A DNA stretch of 64,000 nucleotides from a virus, in IMG/VR virus record IMGVR_UViG_3300025131_000007, positions 1 to 64,000 of that record; one strand, 5' to 3'. The translations under genes were made by a program, and so were the position numbers. Below are positions 4,626 to 38,134 of the stretch, piece after piece; position 1 is the stretch's first letter; each line of letters opens with the position of its first letter. The notes below the pieces were generated by a model that saw only the letters and a list, made by a program, of their open reading frames with translations, had not been told where the DNA came from and did not search any database.

Positions 4626-4643
4626 AATTAAAGGAGAGAGATT

Positions 4644-5201
4644 ATGGCAAGAAGAAATGTAACTTTAAAAACTATTTCAAATCAAAGAAACAATACCACA
4701 CCTAGACGAAGAACGGTATTCGTGGGAGGTCAAGAGGTTGCCAATGAGAAAACAGTTGTAAAGGCAGCAGCCATGGTAAATAAATTAGTATCTAATAAAA
4801 TAATTCCACCCCCTTCGCGAGAGCAGATGGGTGATCTTAAACAATTTTCTAATTTAGCTTTGTTTGGGGTAAATATCACTATTCGTGACGATATCGGCAG
4901 TGACTACAGTTTATTGGAACAACAAAAGAAAAATAATTTATTGGAGAATACCAATATTGTAAACCCAAGTCTTAAGAATTTAAGTAATGAACTTCAAGAT
5001 CCACAAAAAGACAAATTTGTTAATAAAGAGGATCCGTTTTTTGAATTAGATGATGAGCCTGCATCATTTATGAGAGAACAAGAGGTAGTTTTAAAAAAAC
5101 AAACAGCAAAAGATGTTACCAAGATCGCGGCGGATATTTTTGATCAAAATAATCCTTTTAAGCATGGAAATACAAAAAATTTAAAACAATTTCCTAAATA
5201 G
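4644..5201 (+). CDS. Hypothetical protein in structural operon (185 aa)
   Basis: This is a hydrophilic, charged protein. The first 45 residues are basic and Asn/Arg/Thr-rich (MARRNVTLKTISNQRNNTTP), the middle is mixed, and the end is rich in Lys, Asp and Gln. A good ribosome site (AAGGAGAGAG) precedes the ATG. No domain is recognised. Small charged proteins between large baseplate-type proteins are often assembly factors or minor virion proteins, but that is inference only. Confidence 0.5.
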   Translation: MARRNVTLKTISNQRNNTTPRRRTVFVGGQEVANEKTVVKAAAMVNKLVSNKIIPPPSREQMGDLKQFSNLALFGVNITIRDDIGSDYSLLEQQKKNNLLENTNIVNPSLKNLSNELQDPQKDKFVNKEDPFFELDDEPASFMREQEVVLKKQTAKDVTKIAADIFDQNNPFKHGNTKNLKQFPK

Positions 5202-5222
5202 GAAATGGGGGGAGTATAAAAG

Positions 5223-6092: not shown

Positions 6093-6093
6093 C

Positions 6094-9123: not shown

Positions 9124-9130
9124 TTAAGAT

Positions 9131-13567: not shown

Positions 13568-13585
13568 AAATAAATAGGTTATAAT
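13557..13585 (+). promoter_or_regulatory. Sigma70-like promoter for the RuvC-like gene
   Basis: TTGATA (13557-13562), a 17-base spacer, then TATAAT (13580-13585). It overlaps the last codons and stop of the preceding structural gene. The expected transcription start, about 7 bases past the -10 box, falls at or within two bases of the ATG at 13591, so a transcript from here would be leaderless. Confidence 0.65.
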
Positions 13586-13590
13586 AGAGT

Positions 13591-14136
13591 ATGATATTAG
13601 GCGTAGACGTTTCCACTAGCATAACAGGATTTGCCGTTGTTGACAAGAATGGCAAAATAGTTGATATAGGCGCATGTGATCTTCGTAGATATAAAAGCTT
13701 TTTTGAAAAATGCTTACAGATGAGAGAGTTTACTTTAAATCTTTCAGAAAAACATTGTATTGATTGGGTTGAGAGGGGAGTAGAGCACATCTATGTTGAA
13801 CAGCCATTTACTTTTTTTAACTCAGGTGGCTCTAGCGCTAAGACGATGGCATTGTTGCAACGCTTTAATGGGGTGGTTTCTTGGATGTTATACGAGACAT
13901 TCGCCCGAGAGCCCAATTATGTGGGTGCAACCCAGGCACGAAAGAAAGTTGGAATTAGTGTTCCCCGGGGCATCAAGGCGAAAAAAGTTGTGATGGAACA
14001 CCTGCTGACGACGGATGAAGATTTTAAAGTAGAATATACCAATCATGGGAACCCCAAGCCTGTATATTTTGATATGGCAGACGCGTTAGTTATTGCTCGC
14101 GCCGGATTAATTATAGAAAAAGAAAATATCTCTTGA
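13591..14136 (+). CDS. ruvC: RuvC-like Holliday-junction resolvase (RNase H fold)
   Basis: The product probably cleaves four-way DNA junctions produced by recombination-dependent replication, resolving branched DNA before packaging. The 181-residue length matches the RuvC family. The acidic residues of the RNase H-like active site are all visible: Asp6 in ILGVDVSTSITGFAVVD, Glu70 in IYVEQPF, and Asp161 and Asp164 in YFDMADALVIA. The start is fixed because Asp6 must lie in the first strand; no Shine-Dalgarno precedes it, in line with a possible leaderless mRNA. T4 itself uses endonuclease VII (gp49), so this phage has a different resolvase type. It leads the block resolvase-primase-gp47/46-tubulin. 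Confidence 0.85.
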   Translation: MILGVDVSTSITGFAVVDKNGKIVDIGACDLRRYKSFFEKCLQMREFTLNLSEKHCIDWVERGVEHIYVEQPFTFFNSGGSSAKTMALLQRFNGVVSWMLYETFAREPNYVGATQARKKVGISVPRGIKAKKVVMEHLLTTDEDFKVEYTNHGNPKPVYFDMADALVIARAGLIIEKENIS

Positions 14137-14161
14137 CATACATACTGATAGATGTTATATT
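14133..14161 (+). promoter_or_regulatory. Sigma70-like promoter with extended -10, for the primase gene
   Basis: TTGACA (14133-14138), a 17-base spacer, TATATT (14156-14161) with TGT just before it (extended -10). The TGA stop of the resolvase gene (14134-14136) lies inside the TTGACA box. The start codon of the primase is 16 bases downstream of the -10 box. Confidence 0.75.
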
Positions 14162-14176
14162 TGTTCATGAGGAAAT

Positions 14177-15115
14177 ATGAACAAATCACAAGCTAAGAAG
14201 ATATTACATGAAGCATTTGGATACTATCACGATAAGGGTAGCGAACTTCTCTTTACGTGCCCCGCGTGTCGCCATCACAAACGTAAACTATCTGTTAATT
14301 TGGATAAAAATGCTTTTAAATGTTGGATTTGTGATTACCGTGGTCGTAGCCTTCGGCATCTTATTCGGCGGTTTGGAACTCATACACAGTTACAGAAATG
14401 GGACCAAATCTCATCTCGAAGCGATCTTAGTCAGTTTGATGTTTTGTTTATGGATCCAGGTCGGAATTGTGATCGACAAAAGTTATCTCTCCCTAGAGAG
14501 TTTCAAACTCTGACATCTCGCAAGATTCCGGCTACGGGTCAGTATGCGTATAATTATTTATTATCGCGTGGCTTAACTCGTTCAGATATCGTTCGATGGA
14601 AGATAGGATATTGTTTTAGTGGAGAATATCGAAACAGAATCATTATTCCTTCGTTTGATGACGATGGGGATGTCAATTATTTTATTGCGAGATCTTATAC
14701 CAAAGACTCCTATAAATATAAGAATCCCCGCGCCTCTAAAGATATTGTATTTAATGAACTTTATGTCGATTGGAACAAAGATTTAACTTTGGTCGAGGGT
14801 ACATTTGACGCAATTGTTGCGGGAAACAGCATACCTATATTAGGAAGCACATTGCGTTATGATTCCCGTCTGATTCAGAAAATTGTGTTAAATGATACCC
14901 CGGTTTATATGGCTCTCGATCCCGATGCGGCAGAAAAAGAAAGAAAGATTATCTCTACACTTCTTAAATATGATGTAGAGCTTTATAAAATAGATGTATC
15001 GGGATATGAAGACGTGGGGTCAATGTCGCATGATATATTTGTGGAACGAAAACGGAATGCTATGTTCGTGGATCAAGAAGAATATGTTCTGCGAGATATG
15101 TTGTCTGCAATTTAA
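14177..15115 (+). CDS. DNA primase (zinc-binding plus TOPRIM domain)
   Basis: Makes RNA primers for lagging-strand synthesis with the replicative helicase at 62458. Order of domains: a zinc-binding module with Cys28, Cys31, Cys49 and Cys52 (CPAC ... CWIC), then a linker, then a TOPRIM fold. The TOPRIM glutamate is in LVEGTFDAI (Glu207), and the metal-binding DxD-type segment is ALDPDA (residues 246-251). At 312 residues it is short, like phage primases, with no fused helicase. It has its own promoter (14133-14161) and an AGGA ribosome site. The zinc and TOPRIM signatures make a DnaG-type assignment secure; whether it is a strict T4 gp61 orthologue is not decided. Confidence 0.85.
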   Translation: MNKSQAKKILHEAFGYYHDKGSELLFTCPACRHHKRKLSVNLDKNAFKCWICDYRGRSLRHLIRRFGTHTQLQKWDQISSRSDLSQFDVLFMDPGRNCDRQKLSLPREFQTLTSRKIPATGQYAYNYLLSRGLTRSDIVRWKIGYCFSGEYRNRIIIPSFDDDGDVNYFIARSYTKDSYKYKNPRASKDIVFNELYVDWNKDLTLVEGTFDAIVAGNSIPILGSTLRYDSRLIQKIVLNDTPVYMALDPDAAEKERKIISTLLKYDVELYKIDVSGYEDVGSMSHDIFVERKRNAMFVDQEEYVLRDMLSAI

Positions 15116-15118
15116 TCC

Positions 15119-15147
15119 TTGACAGATCTATTCTGACGTGTTATAAT
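15119..15147 (+). promoter_or_regulatory. Consensus sigma70 promoter (TTGACA-17-TATAAT, extended -10)
   Basis: TTGACA (15119-15124), 17 bases, TATAAT (15142-15147), preceded by TGT. Both hexamers are perfect consensus, making it the strongest promoter seen here. It drives the gp47/46 fusion gene and, by overlap, the tubulin-like gene. Confidence 0.85.
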
Positions 15148-15178
15148 ATCTTAACGGATAGATCCGTTTGGAGGGTAT

Positions 15179-18100
15179 TTGAAGTTTGCGCATATTAGCG
15201 ACACTCACATTAAGAATTTAAAATATCATTTTGAGTATCGCGAAGTCTTTCGTCAACTTTATGATCGACTTAAAAAAGAAAAAGTAGATTACATTATTCA
15301 TTGCGGCGATATCGCCCACACCAAGACTCAGATATCGCCTGAGTTTGTGGAGATGTGTTCTCAGTTTTTTCGTAATTTAGAAGCAATTGCTCCTACTTAT
15401 ATAATTTTAGGAAATCATGATGGTAATTTGAAGAACAGCAGTCGTCAGGACGCACTAACGCCTATTGTGGAGGCGTTGGATTTGCCTAATTTGCATTTGC
15501 TTAAAAATTCTGGCGAGACTATTTTAAATGATGAGTTTTGTTTAAACGTTTTATCAGTTTTTGATCGCGATCGATGGGTTACTCCTACCGATAAAGATAA
15601 AATTAATATTGCTCTATATCATGGCTCTATTTCTAACTGTAAAACGGATATGAATTGGGTGATGACAAAGGGAGAAGATACCTTAGACATTTTCAAAGAT
15701 TATGATTTTGCAATGTTGGGGGATATACACCGTCGTCAATTTTTGGATGAAGAAGGTCGTATTTGGTATGCGGGCTCTACCGTTCAACAGAATCACGGAG
15801 AGACAAACGATAAGGGTATTCTCATTTGGAAGATCACTTCCAAAGATGAATGGGATATCGAGCCTATTGTTTTAAAAAATCCTAAACCTTTTATGACTAT
15901 CGAGTTGACCCCGAAGGGGAGAATGCCGCATAATGTAAAAGTTCCCGTTGGCGCTCGCCTGCGTTTGGTAAGTAACAACAACTTGCCTCTGGCAACAATG
16001 CGCAGAGCAATGCAGATAGCTAAGCATCGCTTTAATCCGGAGAGCATATCTTTTCTTAATCGTGCTGCCGGCCAACGAGGGAATGTTGAAGAGATTACCA
16101 ATGATTTAAAAGTAGAAAACTTACGTGATCCTAAGATACAAGAAGAGTTGATGCGTAAATATCTTAAAGAATATCAAGTAACAACCCAGACACTAACACG
16201 CATCTACGAGATTAATCGACATTATAACAAATCTATTGAAAATAGTGAAGAGATATCTAGAAACATTAACTGGAAACTTAAATCTTTTAAGTGGGATTAT
16301 CTGTTTAATTATGGCAAATCCAATCATATTAATTTTGACAGTCTTCATGGCATTATTGGTATTTTTGGAAAGAACTTTTCTGGCAAAAGCTCTGTTGTTG
16401 ATGCTGCGCTTTATACCTTGTTCAACACAACATCCAAGAATGAAAGAAAAAATCTAAATGTCATTAACCAAAATCACACCACAGGTTGCGGAGAACTTGT
16501 TATTGATATAGGAGAAAAGAGATACACTATTAGCCGAGAATCTGAAAAGTATACAAAACGCCTTAAAGGTGAAGAAACCCTTGAAGCAAAAACAGAATTG
16601 AATTTTGAAGTTTATGATATGGTCACAGGAGAAACAACCTCATTAAACGGCAATACTCGCAACCAGACCGACGCAAATATTAGAAAGCACTTTGGGTCTA
16701 TTGAAGACTTTTTTGTCTCTTCATTGGCATCTCAACATGGCGCGTTGGCATTTATTGATGAGGGATCGACTCGTCGTAAAGAAATCATCGCCAAATTTTT
16801 GGATTTGGAAGTCTTCGATAAAAAGTTTAGGCTAGCTAAAGAAGATTCAGTAGACATGAAAGTTCTCCTAAAGAAGCACCAAGATAGAGATTACGATTCC
16901 GAAATTAGCGAACTTCACCAACATTTGGCAACATATAAAGAAAATGTAGAGATTAATAAGCAAATTTGCACTACGTTGCGTGAAGAAGTAAAAACAATTC
17001 AAGCATCGGTGGCAACGGTTAATGAAACAATCAATTCTATTCCTAATAAATATATTGATATTACTAAACTAAAAAAACGCAAAAGAGAACAAGAGACAAC
17101 AATTGCTGTCATTCATAGTAAAATTGTTGAGTCATCTAAAGAGATCGATCTCAAAAAATCCGAAATTGTAATTGCTGCGCGCTTATTGGAAGTGGTTAAT
17201 ATCGAAGATTTAGATGAAAAACAAATAGAAATACAACAGGTTGGGGAAAAGGAAGTAAAATTCTTAAAAGAATTAGAAGAGATAGAAAAGAAACGAAAAT
17301 TACTTGATGGAATTCCTTGTGGTGAGTCGTATCCTACGTGTAAATTTATTCGCGATGCTAACATTGCTGTGGCATGCCAAGAGTTAGTGGAAGGAGATTT
17401 AAGATACGCTACAAAACGATTAAAAATACTCAATCCTCAAGATGTTGAGCGTGAAATATCGGATTATAAAAAGTTACAAACGCAAATTGCCACAACTGAA
17501 AAAACTATTAGCGAGTTGAGTTTGGAAAGAGAGAAGAATAAAGGCACCAAGGTTACTTTAGAAGCGAGATTGAAAGATGTTATATCACAAATCGAAGAAT
17601 ATAATTCTAACAAAGAAGCTATCGAAAATATAGAACGTCTTCTTCAGTTGAGAGTGGAGCATGACCTCAAAGCTGCTGCGAAGGAAGATAAAATATGCAC
17701 GTGCGACAACCAAACACTCGAGCTTGTTAAATTAGTAGGATCGTGTGAACAACAAATAGAAAACCTCCAACAACAAAAACAGGAACAAAAACACTTACAA
17801 GAATCTTTCTCTGCATACGACTTGTTTATGAGATGTATGCACCCTAATGGTATTGCTTATGATATTATCAAAAAGAAAATACCAGTAATCAACCAAGAGA
17901 TTGCTAAGATTTTAACTAATATTGTGGAATTTGAAATAATTTTTGAGAGTAGTGGGAACAAATTTGACATCTTTATAAAACACCCTCAACATGATGCGCG
18001 CCCCATTGAAATGGCATCGGGATCTGAAAAAACAATGGGAGCCATGGCTATTCGTTTGGCACTGTTAAGTGTCTCTTCTCTTCCCAAGGGGGATTTGTTT

Positions 18101-18286
18101 ATTTTGGATGAACCGGGTACGGCATTGGATGAAGAAAATATGGAGGGATTTATTCGGATCTTGGCACTAATTAAGGTGTATTTTAAAAATGTGCTTTTGA
18201 TTTCTCATCTAGATTCTCTTAAGGATTGTGTAGATAGACAGATTATAATAGAAAAGAACAATGGATATGCCAAGGTTAACCAATGA
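15179..18286 (+). CDS. Fused recombination nuclease: gp47 (SbcD/Mre11) + gp46 (SbcC/Rad50) in one chain (1035 aa)
   Basis: This protein processes DNA ends for recombination-dependent replication and host DNA degradation. Residues 1-250 are an Mre11/SbcD phosphoesterase with all motifs: SDTH (Asp8, His10), CGDIAH (Asp44), GNHD (78-81), YHGS (His148) and GDIH (His184). From residue 363 an SbcC/Rad50 ATPase begins: Walker A GKNFSGKSS (397-405), long coiled-coil arms, a hook with Cys713 and Cys720 spaced wider than the usual CxxC, a returning coil, then the ABC signature ASGSEKTMG and Walker B LFILDEPG. In T4 and bacteria these are two genes. The start is TTG, with GGAGGG 5 bases upstream. It overlaps the next gene by ATGA. 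Confidence 0.9.
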   Translation: MKFAHISDTHIKNLKYHFEYREVFRQLYDRLKKEKVDYIIHCGDIAHTKTQISPEFVEMCSQFFRNLEAIAPTYIILGNHDGNLKNSSRQDALTPIVEALDLPNLHLLKNSGETILNDEFCLNVLSVFDRDRWVTPTDKDKINIALYHGSISNCKTDMNWVMTKGEDTLDIFKDYDFAMLGDIHRRQFLDEEGRIWYAGSTVQQNHGETNDKGILIWKITSKDEWDIEPIVLKNPKPFMTIELTPKGRMPHNVKVPVGARLRLVSNNNLPLATMRRAMQIAKHRFNPESISFLNRAAGQRGNVEEITNDLKVENLRDPKIQEELMRKYLKEYQVTTQTLTRIYEINRHYNKSIENSEEISRNINWKLKSFKWDYLFNYGKSNHINFDSLHGIIGIFGKNFSGKSSVVDAALYTLFNTTSKNERKNLNVINQNHTTGCGELVIDIGEKRYTISRESEKYTKRLKGEETLEAKTELNFEVYDMVTGETTSLNGNTRNQTDANIRKHFGSIEDFFVSSLASQHGALAFIDEGSTRRKEIIAKFLDLEVFDKKFRLAKEDSVDMKVLLKKHQDRDYDSEISELHQHLATYKENVEINKQICTTLREEVKTIQASVATVNETINSIPNKYIDITKLKKRKREQETTIAVIHSKIVESSKEIDLKKSEIVIAARLLEVVNIEDLDEKQIEIQQVGEKEVKFLKELEEIEKKRKLLDGIPCGESYPTCKFIRDANIAVACQELVEGDLRYATKRLKILNPQDVEREISDYKKLQTQIATTEKTISELSLEREKNKGTKVTLEARLKDVISQIEEYNSNKEAIENIERLLQLRVEHDLKAAAKEDKICTCDNQTLELVKLVGSCEQQIENLQQQKQEQKHLQESFSAYDLFMRCMHPNGIAYDIIKKKIPVINQEIAKILTNIVEFEIIFESSGNKFDIFIKHPQHDARPIEMASGSEKTMGAMAIRLALLSVSSLPKGDLFILDEPGTALDEENMEGFIRILALIKVYFKNVLLISHLDSLKDCVDRQIIIEKNNGYAKVNQ

Positions 18287-19434
18287 CTAAGAAAAAGAAA
18301 GAAAATAAAAACGAATTTGACTTTCTGCCACCAGCAGAGCTTCCTCCTTCTTTTACTCAGGAGAAGGATCACTATCACGAAAAAGTGGCTGCTGAAGACT
18401 TTGGAATGGTTGAAGACTTCGGTCTTCAAATGGAATATTCTGATGAAGACTTGCTTCCAGATAACACTGCACCGTCTTCTTTAAACATTGGATTTGTGGG
18501 CGTGGGCGGTGGTGGCAACAAGATGGCTAATTCTTTTATTGAATTAGGATTCAACAAAACAATCTTAGTTAATACTACTGGAAAAGATATTCCTAAAAAC
18601 GTTACCGAAGATCATGTGGTATTGATCCCCGATTCTGATGGAATTGGCAAAAATACTGAATATGGAAAAGAAGTGCTAGCCCAGAACGGTGCTGTCGTGG
18701 AAGATGCGTTACGAATTAAATTTGGCAAAGTAGACTGGCTTTTTGTTTGTGCAGGGGGTGGCGGTGGAACCGGATCTTCTGTCGCCGCACTGCATCCCGT
18801 TTTCGAAAGATACATGCAATCTGTGCAGGCGGGTGGAAAAGTAGTGTATGTCGTTTCTTGGCCCACGGCACAAGAGGCACTTAATCCCACAATTGCTAAA
18901 AACGCTCTCACTCTTTTAAATGATGTGTCTAAGTATCCCAACATTGTATTAGATAATGAACGCGCCACCCGCTTGTTGCGCGGAAGAATTGGGATGCTGG
19001 GGCTTTATCCTGTGGCTAATACTCAATTTGCGAAATCTTTTGCGCAAATTCTTAAACTCTCCACCGAAGATTCACCGATTCAGTCCTTCGATTCGAAAGA
19101 TTTGGAAACCTGTATAGGGCAAAATGGTCGTGGCTTTATTGGTTCGACCATGATAAAAGATCCAAATACCGGAAAGCTTGGATCGATGATTCTTCATAAC
19201 TGTATGAACCGATCGGCTTGTCCTCCACCAAAGGGAAAAGCTGCTGCCGGCTCTCTCATTCTGGTTGCATCCGAAGAGATGGTTGCGGATCCAAGAGTAA
19301 GCAAGCATTTAGAATCAGCGATCGCATACGTTGGTGGAAGATGTGAAACACTTTTTTCAGGTGTTTATGTGCGACAGAACGTGCCTGGGTTGATTGCTAT
19401 ACTAGGTATGAGTGGGTTGCCACAAGGAAACTAA
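18283..19434 (+). CDS. FtsZ/tubulin-superfamily GTPase (phage tubulin)
   Basis: A GTP-dependent filament-forming protein is predicted. Residues 1-66 are an acidic extension (with EDFGMVEDFGL) absent from FtsZ. A nucleotide-binding core follows: T1 loop GFVGVGGGGNK (70-80) and tubulin signature AGGGGGTGSS (157-166). The T7-loop equivalent SFDSKDL (268-274) keeps both acidic residues of the FtsZ NxDxxD motif, suggesting GTP hydrolysis is retained. Residues 290-383 match the FtsZ C-terminal subdomain (AAGSLILVAS ... LIAILGMSGLP); no FtsZ-type C-terminal host-binding tail is seen. It overlaps the gp47/46 gene by ATGA, so it is made with recombination enzymes. A role in positioning phage DNA, like PhuZ of jumbo phages, or in interfering with host division is inferred. 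Confidence 0.82.
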   Translation: MTKKKKENKNEFDFLPPAELPPSFTQEKDHYHEKVAAEDFGMVEDFGLQMEYSDEDLLPDNTAPSSLNIGFVGVGGGGNKMANSFIELGFNKTILVNTTGKDIPKNVTEDHVVLIPDSDGIGKNTEYGKEVLAQNGAVVEDALRIKFGKVDWLFVCAGGGGGTGSSVAALHPVFERYMQSVQAGGKVVYVVSWPTAQEALNPTIAKNALTLLNDVSKYPNIVLDNERATRLLRGRIGMLGLYPVANTQFAKSFAQILKLSTEDSPIQSFDSKDLETCIGQNGRGFIGSTMIKDPNTGKLGSMILHNCMNRSACPPPKGKAAAGSLILVASEEMVADPRVSKHLESAIAYVGGRCETLFSGVYVRQNVPGLIAILGMSGLPQGN

Positions 19435-19436
19435 CT

Positions 19437-20345
19437 ATGAAACTAATAATGGAAAATTGGAATAAGTTTGTGAATGAGGAAGAAGCTTCAAAACCAAAAT
19501 TAATTTTCTTGATTGGTCCGCCATCGGTTGGAAAGAGCCGTTGGGTTGCAGATAATATGTCAGGAGATTCTTTAATTCTCAATCGAGATGAGATGGTTGA
19601 AAAAATTGCTCTAGAAAGCGGCGTGGGAACTTATGACGATATGTACAAAAGACCGCCAAAAGAAATATTGCCTACCCCGTTACCAGAGCCGCAAAACCAA
19701 CAAGCAGTAAAGCAATATTTAGCGTCTTTACAAGCAATTGCAGATAAATTTAATAATGAAAATCCCGAGCAAACAAAACAATTTGGACCAGTTGAGCCTT
19801 TCACGGTCGAAAATTATATTAAAGCACTAACCCCAAGAACCGAAGGGGGGTGGGGAGTTCCGGCGGCTGTTTTTGTTCCCCTATATTATCCTAAGATTAA
19901 CACGACAAATGAAACCATCAAAAAGCAATTTGAAGAAGCAAGAGCTTCTTACGCTAGAGACACAAAAGACGTTGTGATAGATATGGTTAATATGTCTCTT
20001 GATGAAAGAGCAGGTCACCGCGTAGAGATGGCTAAAGCAATTGCAGAGACCCCTGTTGATAGTGTTGAAGAAGCGCGCCAAATTATTGATGATAAATTTG
20101 ATCAACAAGCATATGTGTTCGCAAATAGTTTGGAAGGATGGAGCGATGAAGAAAAAGAAAAAATTATACAAAGCGCCGAATTGAGAGCAAAAGAAATAGC
20201 ATCAGAACCGGGAAGATCAAAAACAATACCCCCTCACGCATTTAATCGATTTTTTAATAGCTACGTGCCGCCATCAAAGTCCGAAGGATATTCAATAATA
20301 AAAGTGGTTGGCATACCGGCCTTAACACCAGAAAGGGGATTTTAA
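19437..20345 (+). CDS. P-loop kinase-like protein (zeta-toxin / polynucleotide-kinase type) with head-targeting-like N-terminus
   Basis: The Walker A motif GPPSVGKS (residues 27-34) sits right behind a hydrophobic strand (KLIFLI), followed by LILNRDEMVEKIA, which resembles the (N/S)RD(D/E) substrate-side motif of polynucleotide-kinase and zeta-toxin ATPases. The remaining 240 residues are helical and charged, with no visible phosphatase motif, so a two-domain T4 PseT-like enzyme is unlikely. The N-terminal MENWNKFVNEEE resembles the short head-targeting peptide of T4 internal proteins (MKTYQEFIAEA), which would imply packaging into the capsid. That idea is inference. It follows the tubulin-like gene by two bases, and an AAGGA ribosome site precedes it. 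Confidence 0.6.
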   Translation: MKLIMENWNKFVNEEEASKPKLIFLIGPPSVGKSRWVADNMSGDSLILNRDEMVEKIALESGVGTYDDMYKRPPKEILPTPLPEPQNQQAVKQYLASLQAIADKFNNENPEQTKQFGPVEPFTVENYIKALTPRTEGGWGVPAAVFVPLYYPKINTTNETIKKQFEEARASYARDTKDVVIDMVNMSLDERAGHRVEMAKAIAETPVDSVEEARQIIDDKFDQQAYVFANSLEGWSDEEKEKIIQSAELRAKEIASEPGRSKTIPPHAFNRFFNSYVPPSKSEGYSIIKVVGIPALTPERGF

Positions 20346-20346
20346 A

Positions 20347-20841
20347 ATGAAAATCACGAAAGCACAACTTAGAAAGATTATCGAAGAAGAAATCCAAGAG
20401 ACGCGGATGGGCGGCTTGGGAGGAATGCTCTCGGGAGAAAGTCCCGGCTTTAATCCCGAAAGAGTGGCTGGCGCCGATCCTATGGATGTACCAACCCTTC
20501 GAGGTTCTGTTGAGGATAGGCTTGATAGTTTGGAAGAACGATTTGGTGGTATGGCATCCGATCTACAATGGATACGGAACAAACTGAGTACACCAGAGGG
20601 GCCTTTGGACGAAGAAGAGGCAAAACGAACAGCTAAAGGAAACATTACTCAAGATACGCGCGAAAAATATGCGACTGTCGGTGATGATGGGTTTCCTATT
20701 TTTGATAAAAAGTCTGCGGAAGCAGCGATAGATACGCGCGGCCATGCGTCTGAGGAAGATCAAAAAAAGATTATCAACAAGGCTGCTAAATATGCCCCCG
20801 CCGCCGCAAAGAAAGCAAGAGAAGTTGAAAAGAAGAAATGA
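20347..20841 (+). CDS. Small charged protein with MKxxKxxLxxIIxEE N-terminal peptide (164 aa)
   Basis: The N-terminus MKITKAQLRKIIEEEIQE is an amphipathic, charged helix nearly repeated in the next gene (MKISKSKLEQIIREELAN) and echoed at 30017. A Gly-rich turn, a probable coiled coil near residues 55-85 (VEDRLDSLEERF) and a Lys/Ala-rich end follow. No catalytic motif is present. In T4, short N-terminal peptides direct internal proteins into the prohead, where the gp21 protease removes them; a similar role is possible. The ATG follows the previous stop by one base, and the end overlaps the next gene by ATGA. Confidence 0.5.
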   Translation: MKITKAQLRKIIEEEIQETRMGGLGGMLSGESPGFNPERVAGADPMDVPTLRGSVEDRLDSLEERFGGMASDLQWIRNKLSTPEGPLDEEEAKRTAKGNITQDTREKYATVGDDGFPIFDKKSAEAAIDTRGHASEEDQKKIINKAAKYAPAAAKKAREVEKKK

Positions 20842-21179
20842 AAATCTCCAAGTCCAAACTTGAACAGATCATTCGTGAAGAATTGGCTAACTACTTGTCT
20901 ATGGACGAAGGGAGGCCTGGGTATGTCGCAGGTCATTATATGGGTAAAGTCTACAAGCGCGATGACGATCTTGAAGTAGATCCAGAAGTCGACCCTTACG
21001 AGAGGGCACTTGAATCTCCGCTCGAAGAGGATGACGAAATAGAAGAGGTATTGGGCGCTGATGCATCGTTGGAGGATTATATTCAAGATTTTGTGAACTC
21101 TAAAGATAAGAAGTTCGATGGAGACAGCAAGGAACAAAGAATTAAAAGAGCCAAAGGTGCTTTTTATAATAAGGAGTAA
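20838..21179 (+). CDS. Small acidic protein with MKxxKxxLxxIIxEE N-terminal peptide (113 aa)
   Basis: It begins MKISKSKLEQIIREELANYL, the same amphipathic N-terminal helix pattern as its upstream neighbour. A basic patch around YVAGHYMGKVYKR, a long acidic stretch (Asp/Glu-rich, residues 42-75) and a basic C-terminus follow. No enzyme motif or membrane segment is seen. The start overlaps the preceding stop by ATGA. With its neighbour it may be a head-internal or ejected protein; that rests on the shared N-terminal peptide only. Confidence 0.5.
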   Translation: MKISKSKLEQIIREELANYLSMDEGRPGYVAGHYMGKVYKRDDDLEVDPEVDPYERALESPLEEDDEIEEVLGADASLEDYIQDFVNSKDKKFDGDSKEQRIKRAKGAFYNKE

Positions 21180-21187
21180 GAACACTA

Positions 21188-21385
21188 ATGATTGAAAATG
21201 CAAAAGGAAAATTAGATAAGTTAGTTGAGAAAGTTATATCACGCAAGTTTTTGGTGTGGTTGACTGCAACTGGGCTTATGGCAATGTCAAGCTTGAACTC
21301 TTCTGATTGGGTTATTATATCGGCTATTTATATCGGCGGTCAGACTGTGATTGATGGTGTAGCTAAGCTGAAAGGCTTGGAGTGA
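21188..21385 (+). CDS. Holin-like small membrane protein (65 aa)
   Basis: The 65 residues contain a charged N-terminal helix (1-20), a first hydrophobic segment (about 21-35, FLVWLTATGLMAMSS), a short polar turn (NSSD), a second hydrophobic segment (about 41-57) and a charged tail (KLKGLE). This two-helix hairpin layout fits class II holins or holin-like phage membrane proteins. It overlaps an inner-membrane coiled-coil protein by 4 bases (ATGA-type coupling), and an exported protein follows, so the three look like a lysis cassette. No endolysin gene is in the window. The holin assignment is by topology and context. Confidence 0.5.
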   Translation: MIENAKGKLDKLVEKVISRKFLVWLTATGLMAMSSLNSSDWVIISAIYIGGQTVIDGVAKLKGLE

Positions 21386-21774
21386 TAAGTATTGATTTTT
21401 TAAAAGTATTATCTCTTTTCACGAAATATTGGAAAGAGATTTTACTTATTGTATTTTCTGTTATTATAATCGGCAAGATGCGAATAGATCATAATCGTAT
21501 GAAGGATACATACGAAACGGCACAAGAAGAACTCCAAACACAAATCAACGAACTCAACAAGATCCATGCGCAAGAAATAGAACAAAAGAACAAAGCCATA
21601 GAAATATATCGGGCTGCCATGGAGAATATTGAGAAAGATTACGAAGAACAAAAGAAAAAGAATAAAGAACTTAGCGAGAAAAGAAAAACAACACTCGTAA
21701 AACAATTTACTCACAACAAAGAAGAGCTAGCAGATGAGATTAACAGCACTTTTGGTATTAAATATACTCCTTAG
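21382..21774 (+). CDS. i-spanin-like inner-membrane coiled-coil protein (130 aa)
   Basis: One N-terminal membrane anchor (about residues 16-33, YWKEILLIVFSVIIIGKM) is followed by a long, charged alpha-helical coiled coil (35-110), the layout of Rz-type i-spanins, which sit in the inner membrane and reach across the periplasm. It overlaps the upstream holin-like gene by 4 bases, and its last 41 bases overlap the downstream exported protein in another frame, recalling the nested Rz/Rz1 arrangement. Family identity by sequence is not claimed. A Gram-negative host is implied if this is right. Confidence 0.5.
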   Translation: MISIDFLKVLSLFTKYWKEILLIVFSVIIIGKMRIDHNRMKDTYETAQEELQTQINELNKIHAQEIEQKNKAIEIYRAAMENIEKDYEEQKKKNKELSEKRKTTLVKQFTHNKEELADEINSTFGIKYTP

Positions 21775-22162
21775 TTCGGTGGCATATGGCGCTGAAGGCA
21801 GATTTACGTTCTTGGGAGAGGGAGAGTGTGCCGTCTACGAGGGAGGTCTATTCGACCCTCCGGCCATAGCAAAAATGATTGTCATTGTGGAAGATATACA
21901 CACGGCATGTGACTTAAAAATAGAATACGAATTAGACAAAATTGGCACTCAACACCAATTAGAGATACAAAACCACCACATTGCTTACCAAGCGTTACAG
22001 CAGAAATATAACATACTAGAACAGTCTACGAATACACAAATAACCGAACTTCAAGAGACTTTGAATAGGGTGTCGCCAGATAATAAGTGGTGGTGGTTTG
22101 CCGGCGGTGTGGCCGCCGGGATGGCATCAACGTACGGCGCTTATAAGGTTTTTAATGAGTGA
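21734..22162 (+). CDS. Exported coiled-coil protein with C-terminal membrane anchor; candidate spanin partner (142 aa)
   Basis: A signal peptide (residues 1-19, likely cleaved after AYG) is followed by a short domain with Cys32 and Cys59 that could form a disulfide. A coiled coil (60-112) and a Trp-rich C-terminal hydrophobic segment (about 118-134, WWWFAGGVAAGMAS) come next. There is no lipobox cysteine, so it is not a standard Rz1 lipoprotein. It overlaps the preceding i-spanin-like gene by 41 bases. The topology would place a periplasmic coil anchored at the C-terminal end. A lysis role is inferred from cassette position; an alternative is a general envelope protein. Confidence 0.5.
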   Translation: MRLTALLVLNILLSSVAYGAEGRFTFLGEGECAVYEGGLFDPPAIAKMIVIVEDIHTACDLKIEYELDKIGTQHQLEIQNHHIAYQALQQKYNILEQSTNTQITELQETLNRVSPDNKWWWFAGGVAAGMASTYGAYKVFNE

Positions 22163-22544
22163 TAATTCAGATAAAATCGCTGCCGTAGAACAAGCCATTT
22201 CTAAGAAGTATGGCGACGAAGCCATCCAGAATCCTAAAGCTAATTGGGATCAAGAAAAAGAGCGAGAATATATAAAACAATCTCAGGAATTTTATCGCAA
22301 AGTTCAGCGTAATGATCAGTGGGAAGAAAAAATAGAGGTTAATGGTGTAAAGGTTTCAAAAAAACTACTTAATAGAGAATCTTTGGTTTCTTGCTCCACA
22401 TGTGGGAATTTTCCAAAAGGTGTGATGGATGATGTATGTTTGTCAAAATTTGACTGCTGCAACAAATGTTATATAAAATATGTGGAAGGAAGAGAAGATA
22501 GATGGCTAACAGGATGGAGACCAAATAATGGCAACAACTTATGA
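22155..22544 (+). CDS. Small zinc-ribbon-like protein upstream of the terminase genes (129 aa)
   Basis: The start chosen is ATG at 22155 (MSDNSDKIAAVEQ), which overlaps the previous stop by 8 bases; the longer frame from 22098 begins with residues that look non-coding. The C-terminal half has a CSTCGNF ... CCNKCYIKYVEGRE pattern, two CxxC pairs about 20 residues apart, typical of a structural zinc ribbon. From memory a similar protein precedes the terminase genes in related marine phages. The function is unknown; nucleic-acid or protein binding is possible. It overlaps the next gene by 17 bases. Confidence 0.6.
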   Translation: MSDNSDKIAAVEQAISKKYGDEAIQNPKANWDQEKEREYIKQSQEFYRKVQRNDQWEEKIEVNGVKVSKKLLNRESLVSCSTCGNFPKGVMDDVCLSKFDCCNKCYIKYVEGREDRWLTGWRPNNGNNL

Positions 22545-23061
22545 AATTATACAAGGGCTAGCACAAGCTGCCGCAAATTCTTATGACGGAGCGCTGGGAG
22601 AAGATTGTGAGCCGGTGAATGATGGTATTTTACGAAGAGAAGAAGGGAATGCTTTAATTGACCAGCGAGTGATGGATGGTTTTAACGTTAAATTCTATGG
22701 CAACATGATGTGTTTAAGTTATCAATCCGAGATTAAACTAAAAGAGGTTTATGCCGGCGGATTTGAAGATGAAATGAGTCAGAGGATTACTGATATTGCG
22801 GGCTGGCTTAAAAAAGAATATAAAAAGATTACTGGCGATGCGGTCTCTCTCACTGAAGAAGGGGAGATAGATATTTTAGTTCAAAATTCCTCGAGGGTGC
22901 GCTCATGGGTTCAAGCAAAGAAGCATTATCGCGTTGGTGGTTTGGCAGAGGATATGCAAATTGAGAAACCCTCAGAGAATACTGTAGATGCTTCGTGGAA
23001 AACGTTTTTGAGTCAAGGCGGCTGGGGAAAACGCCCCAAAAACGATACCCGAAAAAAATAA
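22528..23061 (+). CDS. Conserved protein before terminase; candidate small terminase subunit (177 aa)
   Basis: The protein begins MATTYEIIQGLAQAAANSYD and is a mixed alpha/beta soluble protein with a Trp/Lys-rich C-terminal part (SWVQAKKHYRVGG). From memory, proteins with this start lie just upstream of the large terminase in marine T4-like phages. The small terminase subunit normally occupies that position, but no helix-turn-helix or gp16-like coiled coil is evident, so this is only a positional suggestion. It overlaps the zinc-ribbon gene by 17 bases and is 8 bases from the terminase ATG. Confidence 0.5.
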   Translation: MATTYEIIQGLAQAAANSYDGALGEDCEPVNDGILRREEGNALIDQRVMDGFNVKFYGNMMCLSYQSEIKLKEVYAGGFEDEMSQRITDIAGWLKKEYKKITGDAVSLTEEGEIDILVQNSSRVRSWVQAKKHYRVGGLAEDMQIEKPSENTVDASWKTFLSQGGWGKRPKNDTRKK

Positions 23062-23069
23062 GATGAGGC

Positions 23070-24653
23070 ATGACTTTCAAGTTAACTAAAAAACAGCAAG
23101 TCGCTGAAATTTTAAAGTGCGGAAAAGATCCTTCTTATTTTCTTAAGACCTATGCTCGGATTTCTCATCCAATGCAGGGGTTGATTCTGTTTAATACTTA
23201 TGATTTTCAGGATGATTTGTTGAAAGAATTCAACGATTATCGTTTTAATGTAATATTGAAAGCGCGCCAGTTGGGTATTTCTACCATTACTGCCGGCTAT
23301 ATTGTGTGGATGATGTTGTTCCATCGAGACAAGAACATCCTTGTAATGGCGACTAAGTTTGCCACGGCTGGAAACTTGGTTAAGAAAGTCAAAAGCATTA
23401 TGAAGAATCTTCCTTTGTGGTTATCAATTTCTAAAATTGATGTAGACAATAGAACATCTTTTGAACTTTCTAATGGATCCACGATCAAAGCTACGTCGAC
23501 TTCTGGAGATGCCGGTCGTTCTGAGGCGTTGTCTCTGTTGGTTCTTGATGAGGCTGCTCACATCGATGGATTGGACGAGTTGTGGACAGGTTTGTATCCC
23601 ACGCTATCGACAGGTGGTCGATGCATTGCCCTATCTACTCCCAATGGTGTGGGTAATTGGTTTCATAAAACATGCAGCGATGCCCAAAGTGGTGGAAACA
23701 ATTTCAATCTAACTACTTTAAAGTGGAGCAAACACCCAGATCGAGATGAAGAATGGTTTAAGAAAGAAACTAAGAATATGTCTCGCCGCCAAATAGCGCA
23801 AGAGCTTGAGTGCAACTTTAACACGTCTGGAGAAACCGTCATCGATCCAGACTGCATGCAATGGATGTTGTCGAATGTCAAAGAACCAAAACACAGAACG
23901 GGATTCGACAGAAACTTTTGGATCTGGGAAGAGTTTGATCCTACTTGTAATTACCTTATGGTCGCTGATGTGGCTCGCGGAGACGCTGCTGACTATTCTA
24001 CTTTCCATATTCTTAAGTTAGAAACGATGGAAATGGTTGGAGAATACCAAGGTAAGCCAACACCAGATTTATACGCAAACATGCTAAATCAAGTGGGAAG
24101 AGAATTCGGCAATGCCATGTTAGTGGTGGAAAATAATAATATTGGTTATACGGTTTTAGATAAGTTGGTGGAATACGCCTATCCTAATATTTATTATTCC
24201 ATTAAATCTACGCATGAGTATATTGAACAATATCAAGCTGAAGCCATAAATAATTCGATAGCTGGTTTCACCACAAGTGTAAGAACCCGGCCGCTAATTA
24301 TTGCGAAATTAGAAGAGTTTATAAGAAATAAACTAATTACTCTATACTCTTCTCGTACTGTCAACGAGATGAAGACATTCATATGGAACAATGGCAAGCC
24401 GCAAGCAATGAAAGGGTATCATGATGATCTGATCATGGCTCTTGCAATCGCGTGTTGGGTAAGAGATACCGCACTTCAAGCAAACGCAAGAGATCTAAAT
24501 TATCAAAAAGCTTTTGTTGATGCAATTTTTACTACACGAACTACGATGAATACACAAATTAAAGGACAAATTGGTTATAAAAAAGATAATGCTTTAGAGC
24601 AAGTAAATAAAGCTAAAAGTCTGTATGATCAATATAAATGGATTATAAAGTGA
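23070..24653 (+). CDS. 17: Terminase large subunit (gp17-like ATPase/nuclease)
   Basis: The motor packages phage DNA into proheads through the portal. The ATPase domain has a degenerate Walker A KARQLGIST (residues 64-72), as usual for T4-type terminases, and Walker B LLVLDE (156-161) followed by AAHID. The C-terminal RNase H-like nuclease carries Asp300 in YLMVADVARGDAADYS and Glu354 in LVVENNNIGY, with a further acidic pair in YHDDLIMALAIA. At 527 residues it is somewhat shorter than T4 gp17 (610). It sits directly before the portal gene, the normal packaging order. Confidence 0.93.
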   Translation: MTFKLTKKQQVAEILKCGKDPSYFLKTYARISHPMQGLILFNTYDFQDDLLKEFNDYRFNVILKARQLGISTITAGYIVWMMLFHRDKNILVMATKFATAGNLVKKVKSIMKNLPLWLSISKIDVDNRTSFELSNGSTIKATSTSGDAGRSEALSLLVLDEAAHIDGLDELWTGLYPTLSTGGRCIALSTPNGVGNWFHKTCSDAQSGGNNFNLTTLKWSKHPDRDEEWFKKETKNMSRRQIAQELECNFNTSGETVIDPDCMQWMLSNVKEPKHRTGFDRNFWIWEEFDPTCNYLMVADVARGDAADYSTFHILKLETMEMVGEYQGKPTPDLYANMLNQVGREFGNAMLVVENNNIGYTVLDKLVEYAYPNIYYSIKSTHEYIEQYQAEAINNSIAGFTTSVRTRPLIIAKLEEFIRNKLITLYSSRTVNEMKTFIWNNGKPQAMKGYHDDLIMALAIACWVRDTALQANARDLNYQKAFVDAIFTTRTTMNTQIKGQIGYKKDNALEQVNKAKSLYDQYKWIIK

Positions 24654-24661
24654 GATAATAT

Positions 24662-26623
24662 ATGGCACCTCCCAATAGACATAAAGGAAAGAACCCGGTC
24701 AACGATCAGTCGCAATTGTTTAAAGCCCTAACGCGATTATTTTCAGGACCCATTGTTAATTACAGATCTCAATCCGGAAGAAAGATCCGGAGGCAACATT
24801 TAGATAAATTTGCTGCGCGTTTTAAAACTGCTTCTGGACAACAATTCAAAAAGACCCTTTATAATCCTCTAGATAATATAGCAGCGAACGCCATTAGTAA
24901 TCAACGACGCGGAGAACGTTATGTGGATTTTGATCAAATGGAATACATGCCCGAGATTGCTTCCACTCTGGATATCTATGCTGACGAGATGACGACTTAT
25001 TCCGATTTGCGCCCTATGTTAAACATTAAATGCCCCAATGAGGAAATCCGAGCCGTCTTGGCAACTCTTTATGATAACATTTTAAATTTGCAATATAATT
25101 TATTCGGCTGGTGTCGAACCATGTGTAAGTATGGAGACTTCTTTTTGTATTTGGATATTGATGAAAAGTTTGGAGTCAAGTCGGTTATTGCATTGCCGCC
25201 GTCGGAAATCGAAAGGATGGAAGGTCAAGATGCAACGAATCCTAACTATGTTCAATATCAATGGAATTCTGCTGGAATGACCTTTGAGAATTGGCAAGTT
25301 GGCCACTTCCGTATTCTCGGCAATGATAAATATGCTCCCTATGGAACATCCATTCTTGAACCAGCGCGACGTATTTGGAGACAATTAGTGTTGATGGAAG
25401 ATGCGATGATGGCTTATCGTGTCATACGCTCTTCTGAAAGGCGCGTTTTTAAGATTGATGTTGGGGGTATCGCTCCCCAAGATGTGGAACAATACATGCA
25501 GAAGATCGTGACACAACTGAAACGACACTCTGTGGTAGATTCCTCTACCGGTCGTGTTGATTTGCGCTATAATCCCATGTCTATTGAGGAAGATTATTTT
25601 ATTCCTGTACGTGCGGGCTCTGTTACTGATATTCAAAGCCTTCCGGGCGCTACTAATATAACTCAAATTGATGATATCAAATATCTAAGGGATAAATTGT
25701 TTTCAGCACTTAAAGTTCCTCAAGCTTATTTATCGATGGGAGACGAAGCCACGGAAGACAAGACAACTTTAGCTCAAAAAGATATCCGTTTTGCGAGAAC
25801 AGTTCAACGACTTCAAAGAGTTATCATCGCTGAACTCGAAAAGATTGGCATTATTCATCTTTACACTTTGGGTTTTAGGGGAGATGATCTTCTTTCGTTT
25901 AATTTATCTTTAAATAATCCATCTAAAATTGCAGAACTGCAAGAGTTGGAGCACTGGAAGCAAAAGTTTGATATTGCAGCATCTGCTACGGAAGGTTTTT
26001 TCTCGCGCCGATGGGTATCTGAACATGTCTTTGCAATGTCTCATGAGGATTTTGTGAGAAACCAGAGAGAACTTTATTTTGATCGCAAGCAAGATGCCGC
26101 ATTGCAGGCAGTCGCTGAAGCGGGTCTGGCCGGCGGAGGCGGTGGAGAATTGGATTTAGGTGACGAAGGGGGAGAATTGGATTTAGGTGACGAAGGGGGA
26201 GAATTGGATCTCGGAGGGCCGGAAGAGATGCCTGCCGGTGAAGCTGAAACCCCAGCGGGCGATGAAAGTACTTTGTTGGCGGTTCCCCCGGGATCCAGAT
26301 CGCACGTTACCTCTCGTTCGAAAGGAAAAGCATACACGCCAGTAAAAAATGATAAACGACCCGCTGGTGCCCGAAGTCGATCGACGGCTGCCAAATGGGG
26401 ACAACAAATGACATCTCCTACATTAAGAAACATTCTGCCTGGATATGGTGGTCATGATTCTTTGAAATCTTTGGGCGCAGGTATTTATGAAGAAAAAGAT
26501 CCTATTTATACTATAAGTGAGCAAAGGGAAGAAGAAAAGCTATTTCAATTAAATGACTCGATTAGACATTTAATAGGGGATTTGGAAGCTAAACCAAAGA
26601 GGGAGACCGAAAATGAAGATTAG
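24662..26623 (+). CDS. 20: Portal protein (gp20-like)
   Basis: The product forms the dodecameric DNA-entry ring at the capsid vertex and docks the terminase. The core (about residues 50-480) has typical T4-portal features: the MPEIASTLDIYADEMTT segment, LEPARRIWRQLVLMEDAMM, and a YLSMGDEATEDKTTLAQKDIRFARTV-like region in the clip/stem part. At 653 residues it is longer than T4 gp20 (524); the extra length is a C-terminal low-complexity tail with a repeated acidic GELDLGDEG unit and a basic Arg/Ser stretch. It overlaps the next gene by 11 bases. Confidence 0.9.
   Translation: MAPPNRHKGKNPVNDQSQLFKALTRLFSGPIVNYRSQSGRKIRRQHLDKFAARFKTASGQQFKKTLYNPLDNIAANAISNQRRGERYVDFDQMEYMPEIASTLDIYADEMTTYSDLRPMLNIKCPNEEIRAVLATLYDNILNLQYNLFGWCRTMCKYGDFFLYLDIDEKFGVKSVIALPPSEIERMEGQDATNPNYVQYQWNSAGMTFENWQVGHFRILGNDKYAPYGTSILEPARRIWRQLVLMEDAMMAYRVIRSSERRVFKIDVGGIAPQDVEQYMQKIVTQLKRHSVVDSSTGRVDLRYNPMSIEEDYFIPVRAGSVTDIQSLPGATNITQIDDIKYLRDKLFSALKVPQAYLSMGDEATEDKTTLAQKDIRFARTVQRLQRVIIAELEKIGIIHLYTLGFRGDDLLSFNLSLNNPSKIAELQELEHWKQKFDIAASATEGFFSRRWVSEHVFAMSHEDFVRNQRELYFDRKQDAALQAVAEAGLAGGGGGELDLGDEGGELDLGDEGGELDLGGPEEMPAGEAETPAGDESTLLAVPPGSRSHVTSRSKGKAYTPVKNDKRPAGARSRSTAAKWGQQMTSPTLRNILPGYGGHDSLKSLGAGIYEEKDPIYTISEQREEEKLFQLNDSIRHLIGDLEAKPKRETENED
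26144..26214 (+). repeat. 27-base tandem repeat in portal C-terminal tail (about 2.6 copies)
   Basis: Copies at 26144-26170 and 26171-26197 are identical, and a partial third runs from 26198 to 26214. They encode Gly-Glu-Leu-Asp-Leu-Gly-Asp-Glu-Gly repeats. The repeat keeps frame (27 bases), so length change is tolerated. Confidence 0.8.
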
Positions 26624-28424: not shown

Positions 28425-29030
28425 ATGAGTAAAAAACTTTTGAGAGAATACTATCAACTATGCGAAGGTGGCGTATGCCAAGATCTTTTGACAGAAGAAG
28501 AAAAAAGATTTGTATCTGATGGTGGCATGATCCTTTCGGGTATTATGCAAATGGCAGAGACTGTGAATGGTAATGGAAGAGTATATCCGCACTGTGTTTT
28601 AATGAAAGAAATTCGCAATTATGCAAAGCTTGTAAAAGAGAAACGAGCATTGGGAGAACTAGATCACCCTGATGATTCTGTTATTAATTTGCGTAATGCC
28701 TCGCATTTGGTCACTTCGTGCTGGATGGAGGGGAACAAAGTCATGGGAAAAATTCAAGTTCTCAACACGCCATCTGGAAAAATCTTACAAGAACTCGTAA
28801 AAGGTGGCGTAAGTATAGGAATCTCTTCGAGGGGAATGGGCTCCGTTACAGAAAACAACGGCCAGACAATTGTGGAGGATGACTTTCAATTGATTTGTTT
28901 TGATATGGTGTCGGAACCATCGACCCCAGGAGCCTTTATGATGAAAGAGGCAAAAGAATACACTAATACAGTTTTCACCAAAGCAGATACAATTAATCGT
29001 CTCTTAAATGAGGTTTTAGAGAGTGAGTGA
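28425..29030 (+). CDS. 21: Prohead core serine protease (gp21-like)
   Basis: The protease degrades the scaffold and trims capsid and internal proteins during head maturation. The herpesvirus/T4 assemblin-type catalytic residues are visible: His81 in GELDHP and the serine in ISSRGMGSV (Ser134 or Ser135). The 201-residue length is close to T4 gp21 (212). It lies upstream of scaffold and capsid genes as in T4, but separated from them by several decoration-type genes and bS21. It ends with an 8-base overlap into the next gene. Confidence 0.88.
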   Translation: MSKKLLREYYQLCEGGVCQDLLTEEEKRFVSDGGMILSGIMQMAETVNGNGRVYPHCVLMKEIRNYAKLVKEKRALGELDHPDDSVINLRNASHLVTSCWMEGNKVMGKIQVLNTPSGKILQELVKGGVSIGISSRGMGSVTENNGQTIVEDDFQLICFDMVSEPSTPGAFMMKEAKEYTNTVFTKADTINRLLNEVLESE

Positions 29031-36310: not shown

Positions 36311-38134
36311 ATGTCTAGTATTATCGAAAGACTGACTGAAGGCGTTGTCAACCGTGACATGAAAGCCGAAGGTCATGCTCTTCTTACAAAATGGGAACGC
36401 ACTGGTCTCCTTGAGGGATTGACCAATGATCGTTCTAAGCATTCTATGGCTCGCTTGCTTGAAAATCAAGCTAAAGAGCTTCTTCGTGAAACAAGCGCAA
36501 TGAGCGCTGGTGATGTCGAAGGTTTTGCATCTGTTGCATTTCCAATCGTTCGTCGTGTTTTCGCTGGGTTGATCGCAAACGATCTCGTTTCCGTTCAACC
36601 AATGAGTCTGCCAAGCGGTCTCATCTTTTTCCTTGACTTCTTGTTCTCACCAGATCTTGGTGGGCGCGCGCAAAACCAAACCCGAATGGGCAACGTTTAT
36701 GACAAGTCTATTTATGGTACTGATCAGGTTGGATCGCAAATTACCGGTGGTGTTAATCTGGTAGGGGCAACCCTTAAAGAAGACCTCTCTGGTCCTCGCA
36801 CTGTTGGTGCTCGCGGTTATTCCTATTCATCACCAACCGCTTCTGTGGATAACGGAAACTGTCAGTTTTTGGCAGGGTTCTCTCTTACTGGTGCTACTGA
36901 AGCACAAAAAAGAGATTACTTGTTGAATGACCCTGATTTGATTACGCTTTCTCAGTCTAATTCTACGGCTGAGGTCGCAGTCTTTAGGATCCCTGGAAAC
37001 GCCCTAACGGGAGCAAACAATGCCACACCCGCTGATTTTGAAAATCTGGGTGCATTTGTTCTTAATAATTCACCTGGTGCTGGTGCTGAAAATACAGGTG
37101 TTGGAACATCTACCAAGCAAATCCGTCGTCTTACTCAGCAAACTGGGTCTGGTGGAACGGAACGCGATGTTCTCTTTGTGTTGATTGGTCCTGACAATGC
37201 GGCAACAACCGGATTGCAGCCCACCAATTGTAGTGCAACCCCTGCTTCCATGGAAGCAACATCTGTTACTTTCCCACTGCGTGATAATATGGATGCTGGT
37301 GGTGCTATTGGTTCGGTTACCGGTCTTCAAGATTGGGCACTGGAAAATAGCGATAACATCCCAGAGATCGACATTAAGGTCGATAGTGTGGCAGTAACCG
37401 CCATTACCAAGAAACTGAAAGCCAAGTGGACACCTGAATTGGGTCAAGACTTGAATGCTTATCATAACTTGGATGCCGAGGTGGAGTTGACCTCGATTCT
37501 TTCTGAGCAAGTTGCTCTTGAAATCGATCGTGAAATTATCTCTGATCTTGTCAATGGTGCAAAAGCTGCGACCTATTATTGGAGTCGTGCACCTGGGTTG
37601 TTTTTGAACCGAGAAACTGGAACTGAAATTGGAGCGGCAAGTGCTGCACCTGACTTTACCGGTACGGTTTCGGAATGGTATGAAACTCTTGCTGAAACAA
37701 TCAATGATGTTTCTGCCCAAATTCACCGTAAAACTCTTAGGGGTGGAGCTAACTTTGTGGTCTGTGGCCCTGAAGTTGCGAATATCCTTGAGTTTACCGC
37801 TGGGTTCCGCGCATCAGTTACCGCTGATGACGAAACGGGCTCTATCGGTGCTGTGAAAGTCGGTAGTCTTTCTAAGAAGTTTGACGTTATCGTCGATCCT
37901 TACTTCCTCCGGAACGTTGTTCTCGTTGGTCGTCGGGGTTCTAGCTTCCTCGAAAGCGGATATGTGTATGCACCTTATGTGCCACTGCAAACCACACCAA
38001 CGATCTTCGGACCTGAAGACTTCGTGCCAAGAAAGGGTGTTATGACCCGTTACGCGAAGAAGATGGTTCGCCCAGATATGTATGGGTTGGTTATCATTCG
38101 TGGTCTCCTTGGTGAAGCCGGCGCTACTAGCTAA
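36311..38134 (+). CDS. 23: Major capsid protein (gp23-like, HK97 fold)
   Basis: The main shell subunit. It begins MSSIIERLTEGVVNRDMKAE, then LLEGLTND, a plausible site for removal of the N-terminal region by the prohead protease. Typical gp23 segments follow: FPIVRRVFAGLIANDLVSVQPMSLPSGLIF-like text near residues 78-106, the AEVELTSILSEQVALEIDRE long helix near 396, and a C-terminal GLVIIRGLL strand. At 607 residues it is larger than T4 gp23 (521). Codon choice is visibly more uniform and GC-richer than neighbours, consistent with high expression. A strong terminator follows directly. Confidence 0.92.
   Translation: MSSIIERLTEGVVNRDMKAEGHALLTKWERTGLLEGLTNDRSKHSMARLLENQAKELLRETSAMSAGDVEGFASVAFPIVRRVFAGLIANDLVSVQPMSLPSGLIFFLDFLFSPDLGGRAQNQTRMGNVYDKSIYGTDQVGSQITGGVNLVGATLKEDLSGPRTVGARGYSYSSPTASVDNGNCQFLAGFSLTGATEAQKRDYLLNDPDLITLSQSNSTAEVAVFRIPGNALTGANNATPADFENLGAFVLNNSPGAGAENTGVGTSTKQIRRLTQQTGSGGTERDVLFVLIGPDNAATTGLQPTNCSATPASMEATSVTFPLRDNMDAGGAIGSVTGLQDWALENSDNIPEIDIKVDSVAVTAITKKLKAKWTPELGQDLNAYHNLDAEVELTSILSEQVALEIDREIISDLVNGAKAATYYWSRAPGLFLNRETGTEIGAASAAPDFTGTVSEWYETLAETINDVSAQIHRKTLRGGANFVVCGPEVANILEFTAGFRASVTADDETGSIGAVKVGSLSKKFDVIVDPYFLRNVVLVGRRGSSFLESGYVYAPYVPLQTTPTIFGPEDFVPRKGVMTRYAKKMVRPDMYGLVIIRGLLGEAGATS

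Follow-up and report, generated by a model that had tools for sequence, protein, structure and literature searches.

The window analysed here is a stretch of 64,000 nucleotides (positions 1 to 64,000) of the IMG/VR virus record IMGVR_UViG_3300025131_000007 and carries a gene, hereafter TUB, coding for a protein of the tubulin/FtsZ superfamily; TUB is present as a single copy within the 135,976-bp record. The open reading frame lies on the plus strand and, as an earlier note on this DNA had claimed, its start overlaps the stop of a gp47/gp46 fusion gene by 4 nt (ATGA). The terminase, portal, prohead protease, capsid and sheath proteins all match T4-type profiles (phrog_2, phrog_213, phrog_207, phrog_138 and phrog_23, respectively), which bears out the assignment to a T4-type myovirus. 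The features considered below are the following:

15179..18286, plus strand: fused gp47/gp46 (SbcD-SbcC-like) recombination nuclease, 1035 aa (PHROG 77 and 100)
18283..19434, plus strand: TUB, tubulin/FtsZ-superfamily GTPase gene, ATG start, 383 aa (ORF, PF00091, AF2, Foldseek)
18283..18480, plus strand: acidic N-terminal extension of TUB, residues 1-66, mostly predicted disordered (sequence, AF2)
18394..18465, plus strand: conserved acidic linear motif before strand S1, residues 38-61, EDFGMVEDFGLQMEYSDEDLLPDN (alignment of relatives)
18499..18522, plus strand: T1 nucleotide loop GVGGGGNK, residues 73-80 (G73, G75, G76, G78 and K80 invariant in 63 relatives)
18751..18780, plus strand: T4/tubulin signature AGGGGGTGSS, residues 157-166 (G158 and G160-S165 invariant in 63 relatives)
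18952..18963, plus strand: T6 base-contact motif DNER, residues 224-227 (N225 and E226 invariant in 63 relatives)
18994..19059, plus strand: central helix H7, residues 238-259 (AF2 model)
19084..19104, plus strand: T7 catalytic synergy loop SFDSKDL, residues 268-274 (D270 and D273 invariant in 63 relatives)
23070..24653, plus strand: T4-type large terminase (terL), 3.6 kb downstream of TUB (phrog_2)
24662..26623, plus strand: T4-type portal, gp20 (phrog_213)
28425..29030, plus strand: prohead maturation protease, gp21 (phrog_207)
36311..38134, plus strand: major capsid protein, gp23 (phrog_138)

The Pfam Tubulin profile (PF00091) matched TUB with E=1.7e-10 and 42 bits (cut-off 33), and scored above the cut-off in 8 of 10 long contigs; the best sequence match in the PDB was FtsZ of S. 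aureus (E=3.5e-10). With 23 close homologues as input, AlphaFold2 (AF2) returned a poor model (pLDDT 49.8); 63 diverse sequences mended its quality (pLDDT 86.2, pTM 0.81). In this model the N domain, H7 and the C-terminal activation domain follow one another in order, with strands S1-S10 and helices H7-H10, and the chain stops 4 residues past S10, a remainder otherwise put at about 4-7 residues. Foldseek aligned TUB with CetZ, FtsZ and TubZ over 320-360 columns, at E values of about 1e-18 to 1e-20 (best values: 5e-20 for CetZ; TM score, on the target, of up to 0.80 for FtsZ and 0.70 for TubZ). The T1, T4, T6 and T7 motifs, scored over 63 diverse relatives (55-89% identical), are invariant or nearly so. 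The signature AGGGGGTGSS aligns with GMGGGTGTG of FtsZ, the T6 motif is in the style of the DNE[KQ] of TubZ and phage G, and SFDSKDL aligns with NLDFADV of FtsZ and LDKKDL of TubZ. The T1 loop, the signature, the T7 loop with both aspartates and the C-terminal subdomain, all listed in the earlier note, were found, except that the signature ends in Ser (Ala in other relatives) and not in the canonical Gly. The profile search and structure prediction that had been proposed as checks both returned a tubulin/FtsZ fold, and Pfam, AF2, Foldseek and the invariant motifs together bear out an intact GTPase apparatus; with its catalytic residues complete, TUB also stands as a predicted, likely filament former. 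We regard the fold and the membership in the superfamily as practically certain. That TUB is an active GTPase and polymerises head to tail would follow from established knowledge of tubulin and FtsZ.

The N-terminal extension has a net charge of about -9 (16 Asp/Glu and 7 Lys residues), and AF2 assigned low confidence to residues 1-13, 19-32 and 42-53. The acidic extension of 66 residues described earlier is present in the window; across the family, however, its length varies from about 20 to 100 aa and only a short motif, DDF[DG]F[IV]xHYG...LPEN, is kept, in nearly all relatives and even in those without the rest of the extension. In PhuZ and TubZ, polymer and cofactor functions are served by the C-terminal tail (PMC3678025; PMC5322520). 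As TUB has no such tail, its acidic N-terminal motif is a candidate docking site.

At least 415 IMG/VR contigs, with lengths reaching 190-205 kb, carry relatives of TUB, and the full-length relatives are 53-100% identical. A tblastn search of INPHARED returned a single match, the distant gp138 of Bacillus phage G, and no other isolate, and the PLSDB plasmid collection held no relative. The family therefore belongs to a clade of uncultured phages, apparently mostly marine, an impression gained from the sample types. In a scan of GTDB genomes, one contig carried a relative; it was binned in a Flavobacteriaceae MAG, is separate from the contig carrying the MAG's own FtsZ, and looks like a binned phage. 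The nearest terminases among isolates are those of Flavobacterium phage immuto (48%) and Microcystis phage Mel-JY01 (44%); neither these two phages nor the 484-kb LR756508 or SRB7757 has a Tubulin-domain gene above the cut-off. Strong Shine-Dalgarno sites precede 35 of the 47 genes in the window, a usage that argues against a Bacteroidota host; psbA was searched for and not found. We found no report of a tubulin in T4-type phages in the mainly open-access literature covered.

Among the genes compared in the window's lineage, TUB shows the highest conservation: near the window's type, median identities were 86.6% for TUB, 81.8% for terL, 73.7% for the portal, 66.0% for the primase and 58.6% for gp46/47, in loci picked by their similarity to TUB, a bias that may inflate TUB's own figure. 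Its median omega of about 0.034, with synonymous sites near saturation, indicates strong purifying selection. High conservation is expected for a self-assembling protein, and the rank of TUB in this comparison points to a central role. When presence was scored from the terminase and not from TUB, in 12 loci spanning gp46/47 to terL, TUB was encoded in 11, with 62-89% identity; in the remaining locus (L295), both gp46/47 and terL are present and small leader-bearing ORFs occupy its place, so that TUB is not strictly essential. TUB is a near-core gene, nearly universal (11/12 loci) in this uncultured T4-type clade. These data also bear on the proposal of the earlier note that TUB might disturb host FtsZ; such an interferer would co-assemble with FtsZ or cap it and so block division. 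Phage-encoded division inhibitors exist and the fold of TUB is FtsZ-like; a poison, however, would have no need of the catalytic aspartates of T7, which are nevertheless invariant in the 63 relatives, the extreme conservation is not the pattern of an arms race, and co-assembly is unlikely because TUB is only about 20% identical to FtsZ. Nothing in the analysis supports such interference, which we consider improbable.

Several other features of these genomes were recorded. In the window and loci L241-L428, many otherwise unrelated proteins have a common N-terminal leader: 203 different ORFs start like MKITKSQLKQIIKEEL and 32 like MKLLxENWRKFLNE, with an [ILV]xE site in 233 of the 235 and no matches after the N-termini were shuffled. 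In the window, leader-bearing ORFs lie at 19437-20345, 20347-20841 and 20838-21179. T4-style capsid-targeting sequences (CTS) are cut by the gp21 protease (PMC9026906), and the shared leaders look like a large set of such sequences, which would mark a considerable number of proteins as packaged in the head and probably injected. The P-loop protein encoded at 19437-20345 was considered as a partner of TUB and rejected, as it is not conserved; no dedicated conserved partner adjoining TUB was found. Between TUB and terL, a conserved cassette (21188-22162 in the window) codes for three small proteins and is likely a lysis cassette: the first, of 65 aa, is hydrophobic, the second, of 130 aa, is a single-TM coiled coil weakly similar to Rz spanins (phrog_739, E 0.027), and the third, of 142 aa, has an N-terminus resembling a signal. 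For the 391-aa product of 55885-57060, similarity to phrog_17, a profile of phage DNA polymerase, falls mainly in the C-terminal part of the profile, with the best stretch at 1118-1232 of its 1445 positions; the protein is possibly part of a split DNA polymerase. Lastly, six ORFs of up to 1148 aa in 106-10120 have no PHROG match, and short GGC-rich tandem repeats are present at 3-81 and 6345-6401.

In hhalign comparisons TubZ ranked first (E 1.4e-15, 289 columns), followed by FtsZ (6e-10, 215 columns) and PhuZ (1e-5, 137 columns). A maximum likelihood tree recovered the TUB family as one clade (100/99) and excluded PhuZ (100/100); FtsZ and TubZ were not separated as its sister group (80/75, with long branches). 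The PhuZ profile phrog_4733 covered only 80 residues of TUB (91-170, E=0.006), and the A4 profile failed to detect the PhuZ of phiKZ. Because a chimallin search with a single query missed two of three PhuZ-carrying controls, the PHROG profile phrog_4795 was used, which was found in all three of these PhuZ phages (Noxifer, BONAISHI and JM-2012) and in none of seven TUB-carrying contigs of 135,976-205,517 bp (the window's record and six of 190-205 kb). Multisubunit RNA polymerase was likewise absent from the long TUB-carrying contigs, with two control phages positive. Because the records are classed as linear in IMG/VR, and may be fragments, both absences are strong and not absolute. Membership in PhuZ is ruled out by profile, tree, missing tail and lack of chimallin, and the likeness to PhuZ drawn by the earlier note is contradicted on each of these counts.

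The neighbourhood of TUB differs among relatives. Of 61 relatives with gp46/47 no more than 2.1 kb upstream, 12 have the 4-nt overlap, and in most others up to 2 kb of inserted sequence separates the two genes. The recognised genes flanking TUB are gp46/47 and terL in 74 loci, the portal and protease genes in 11 (with gp21 directly after TUB), the capsid and head-tail adaptor genes in eight (plus three with the adaptor only) and the primase and gp46/47 genes in two, whereas 14 loci lack any recognised gene for replication, the head or packaging nearby; these counts include several close relatives and are not independent events. A general functional operon of TUB and gp46/47 was therefore rejected, as the overlap is local and other lineages have other contexts. 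The earlier note had placed TUB beside genes for DNA-end processing, which is true of the window; the arrangement is local, and elsewhere in the family TUB is found in the head/packaging module. Since TUB moves but recurs in this module, we prefer a role at the packaging stage over one in DNA-end processing.

Two alternatives bear on this preference. That TUB lies in other lineages between the portal and protease genes, or behind the capsid gene, could also fit a head-assembly GTPase or scaffold, or a packaged internal head protein, and not a cytomotive filament; yet TUB has a complete polymerisation-type active site, lacks the capsid-targeting leader of its neighbours and, in the window's lineage, usually lies outside the head operon, and we give this reading little credence. 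The second alternative is a filament that positions or segregates DNA, centring replicating concatemers in the manner of TubZ or PhuZ, and that acts early, with the recombination-replication genes and not on capsids. It agrees with the proximity of the TUB profile to that of the DNA-moving TubZ, and with the place of TUB after primase and gp46/47 in the window's lineage, including the ATGA overlap in 12/61 relatives. On the other hand, no tubC-like iteron array was detected within 12000-23500, which speaks against a TubZRC locus in that stretch, and no TubR was seen in a non-exhaustive search for such folds; TUB lacks a TubZ-like C-terminal tail and lies inside the head module in other lineages. 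We view an early DNA-positioning filament as rather unlikely.

Our best guess, to which we give an even chance or slightly less, is a dynamic TUB filament that positions genomes or capsids at the packaging stage. In its favour stand the fold, the invariant catalytic residues, the strong conservation and near-core presence of TUB, its recurrence beside packaging or head genes, the lack of chimallin and multisubunit RNA polymerase, and a profile closest to that of the DNA-moving TubZ; as a guide to the cargo, however, neighbouring genes are weak evidence. Once bound to GTP, subunits would assemble head to tail, each using its T7 aspartates to complete the active site of its neighbour, and would so form dynamic filaments. 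The acidic N-terminal motif, instead of a C-terminal tail, may dock a phage cargo or adaptor, and the filaments may position phage DNA and/or procapsids, or move them, in a nucleus-free T4-type infection, by which packaging would be spatially organised. The fuller proposition, that a nucleus-free T4-type clade uses a near-core tubulin to organise packaging, with cargo held through the N-terminal acidic motif, is put forward somewhat more tentatively.

Compared with known systems, TUB has the two-domain fold of FtsZ and CetZ, its top Foldseek matches, and a T1 loop of their GVGGGG(N/G) style; it differs from FtsZ in sequence (about 20% identity) and in lying in a viral locus and not in a host division cluster, and the FtsZ-type C-terminal linker and conserved FtsA/ZipA-binding peptide are absent from all aligned relatives. 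Two subgroups of phage tubulins are distinguished in reviews, C-st TubZ and PhuZ (PMC7950403). TubZ-like proteins (gp138 of Bacillus phage G and those of Bacillus/Priestia plasmids) are the best full-length profile match, at about 23-24% identity, and have in common with TUB a DNE T6 motif and a DxxDL T7 motif. TubZ dynamics, however, need a flexible C-terminal tail (PMC5322520), which TUB lacks, and TUB is set apart by its acidic N-terminal motif, its T4-type genome and the lack of an obvious TubR or tubC. PhuZ is also a phage-encoded member of the superfamily; it has [GS]-[AG]-S-G-S where the TUB family has GGGTGS, and a helix H11 and an acidic C-terminal tail that runs along the protofilament (PMC3678025), whereas TUB has neither and ends after S10. 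PhuZ is linked to phage nuclei (PMC12908238; PMC10299810): about two thirds of the phages that form a nucleus have it (PMC12908238). These phages are the Chimalliviridae, whereas chimallin was absent from the long TUB-carrying contigs. Giant phages that form a nucleus are thus probably not the only ones in which filaments organise infection; if so, TUB would represent a cytomotive system that does without the phage nucleus and, in the literature examined, the first of its kind in T4-type phages. The result is stronger than the claim that led to it, in that it describes a conserved family across a large clade of uncultured phages. TUB is ordinary in its fold and new in its family, phage type and context: it constitutes a third family of phage tubulins, next to PhuZ and TubZ of the C-st type, and its occurrence in a T4-type clade without chimallin uncouples phage cytoskeletons from phage nuclei and allows the purpose of phage tubulins to be tested in a simpler system.
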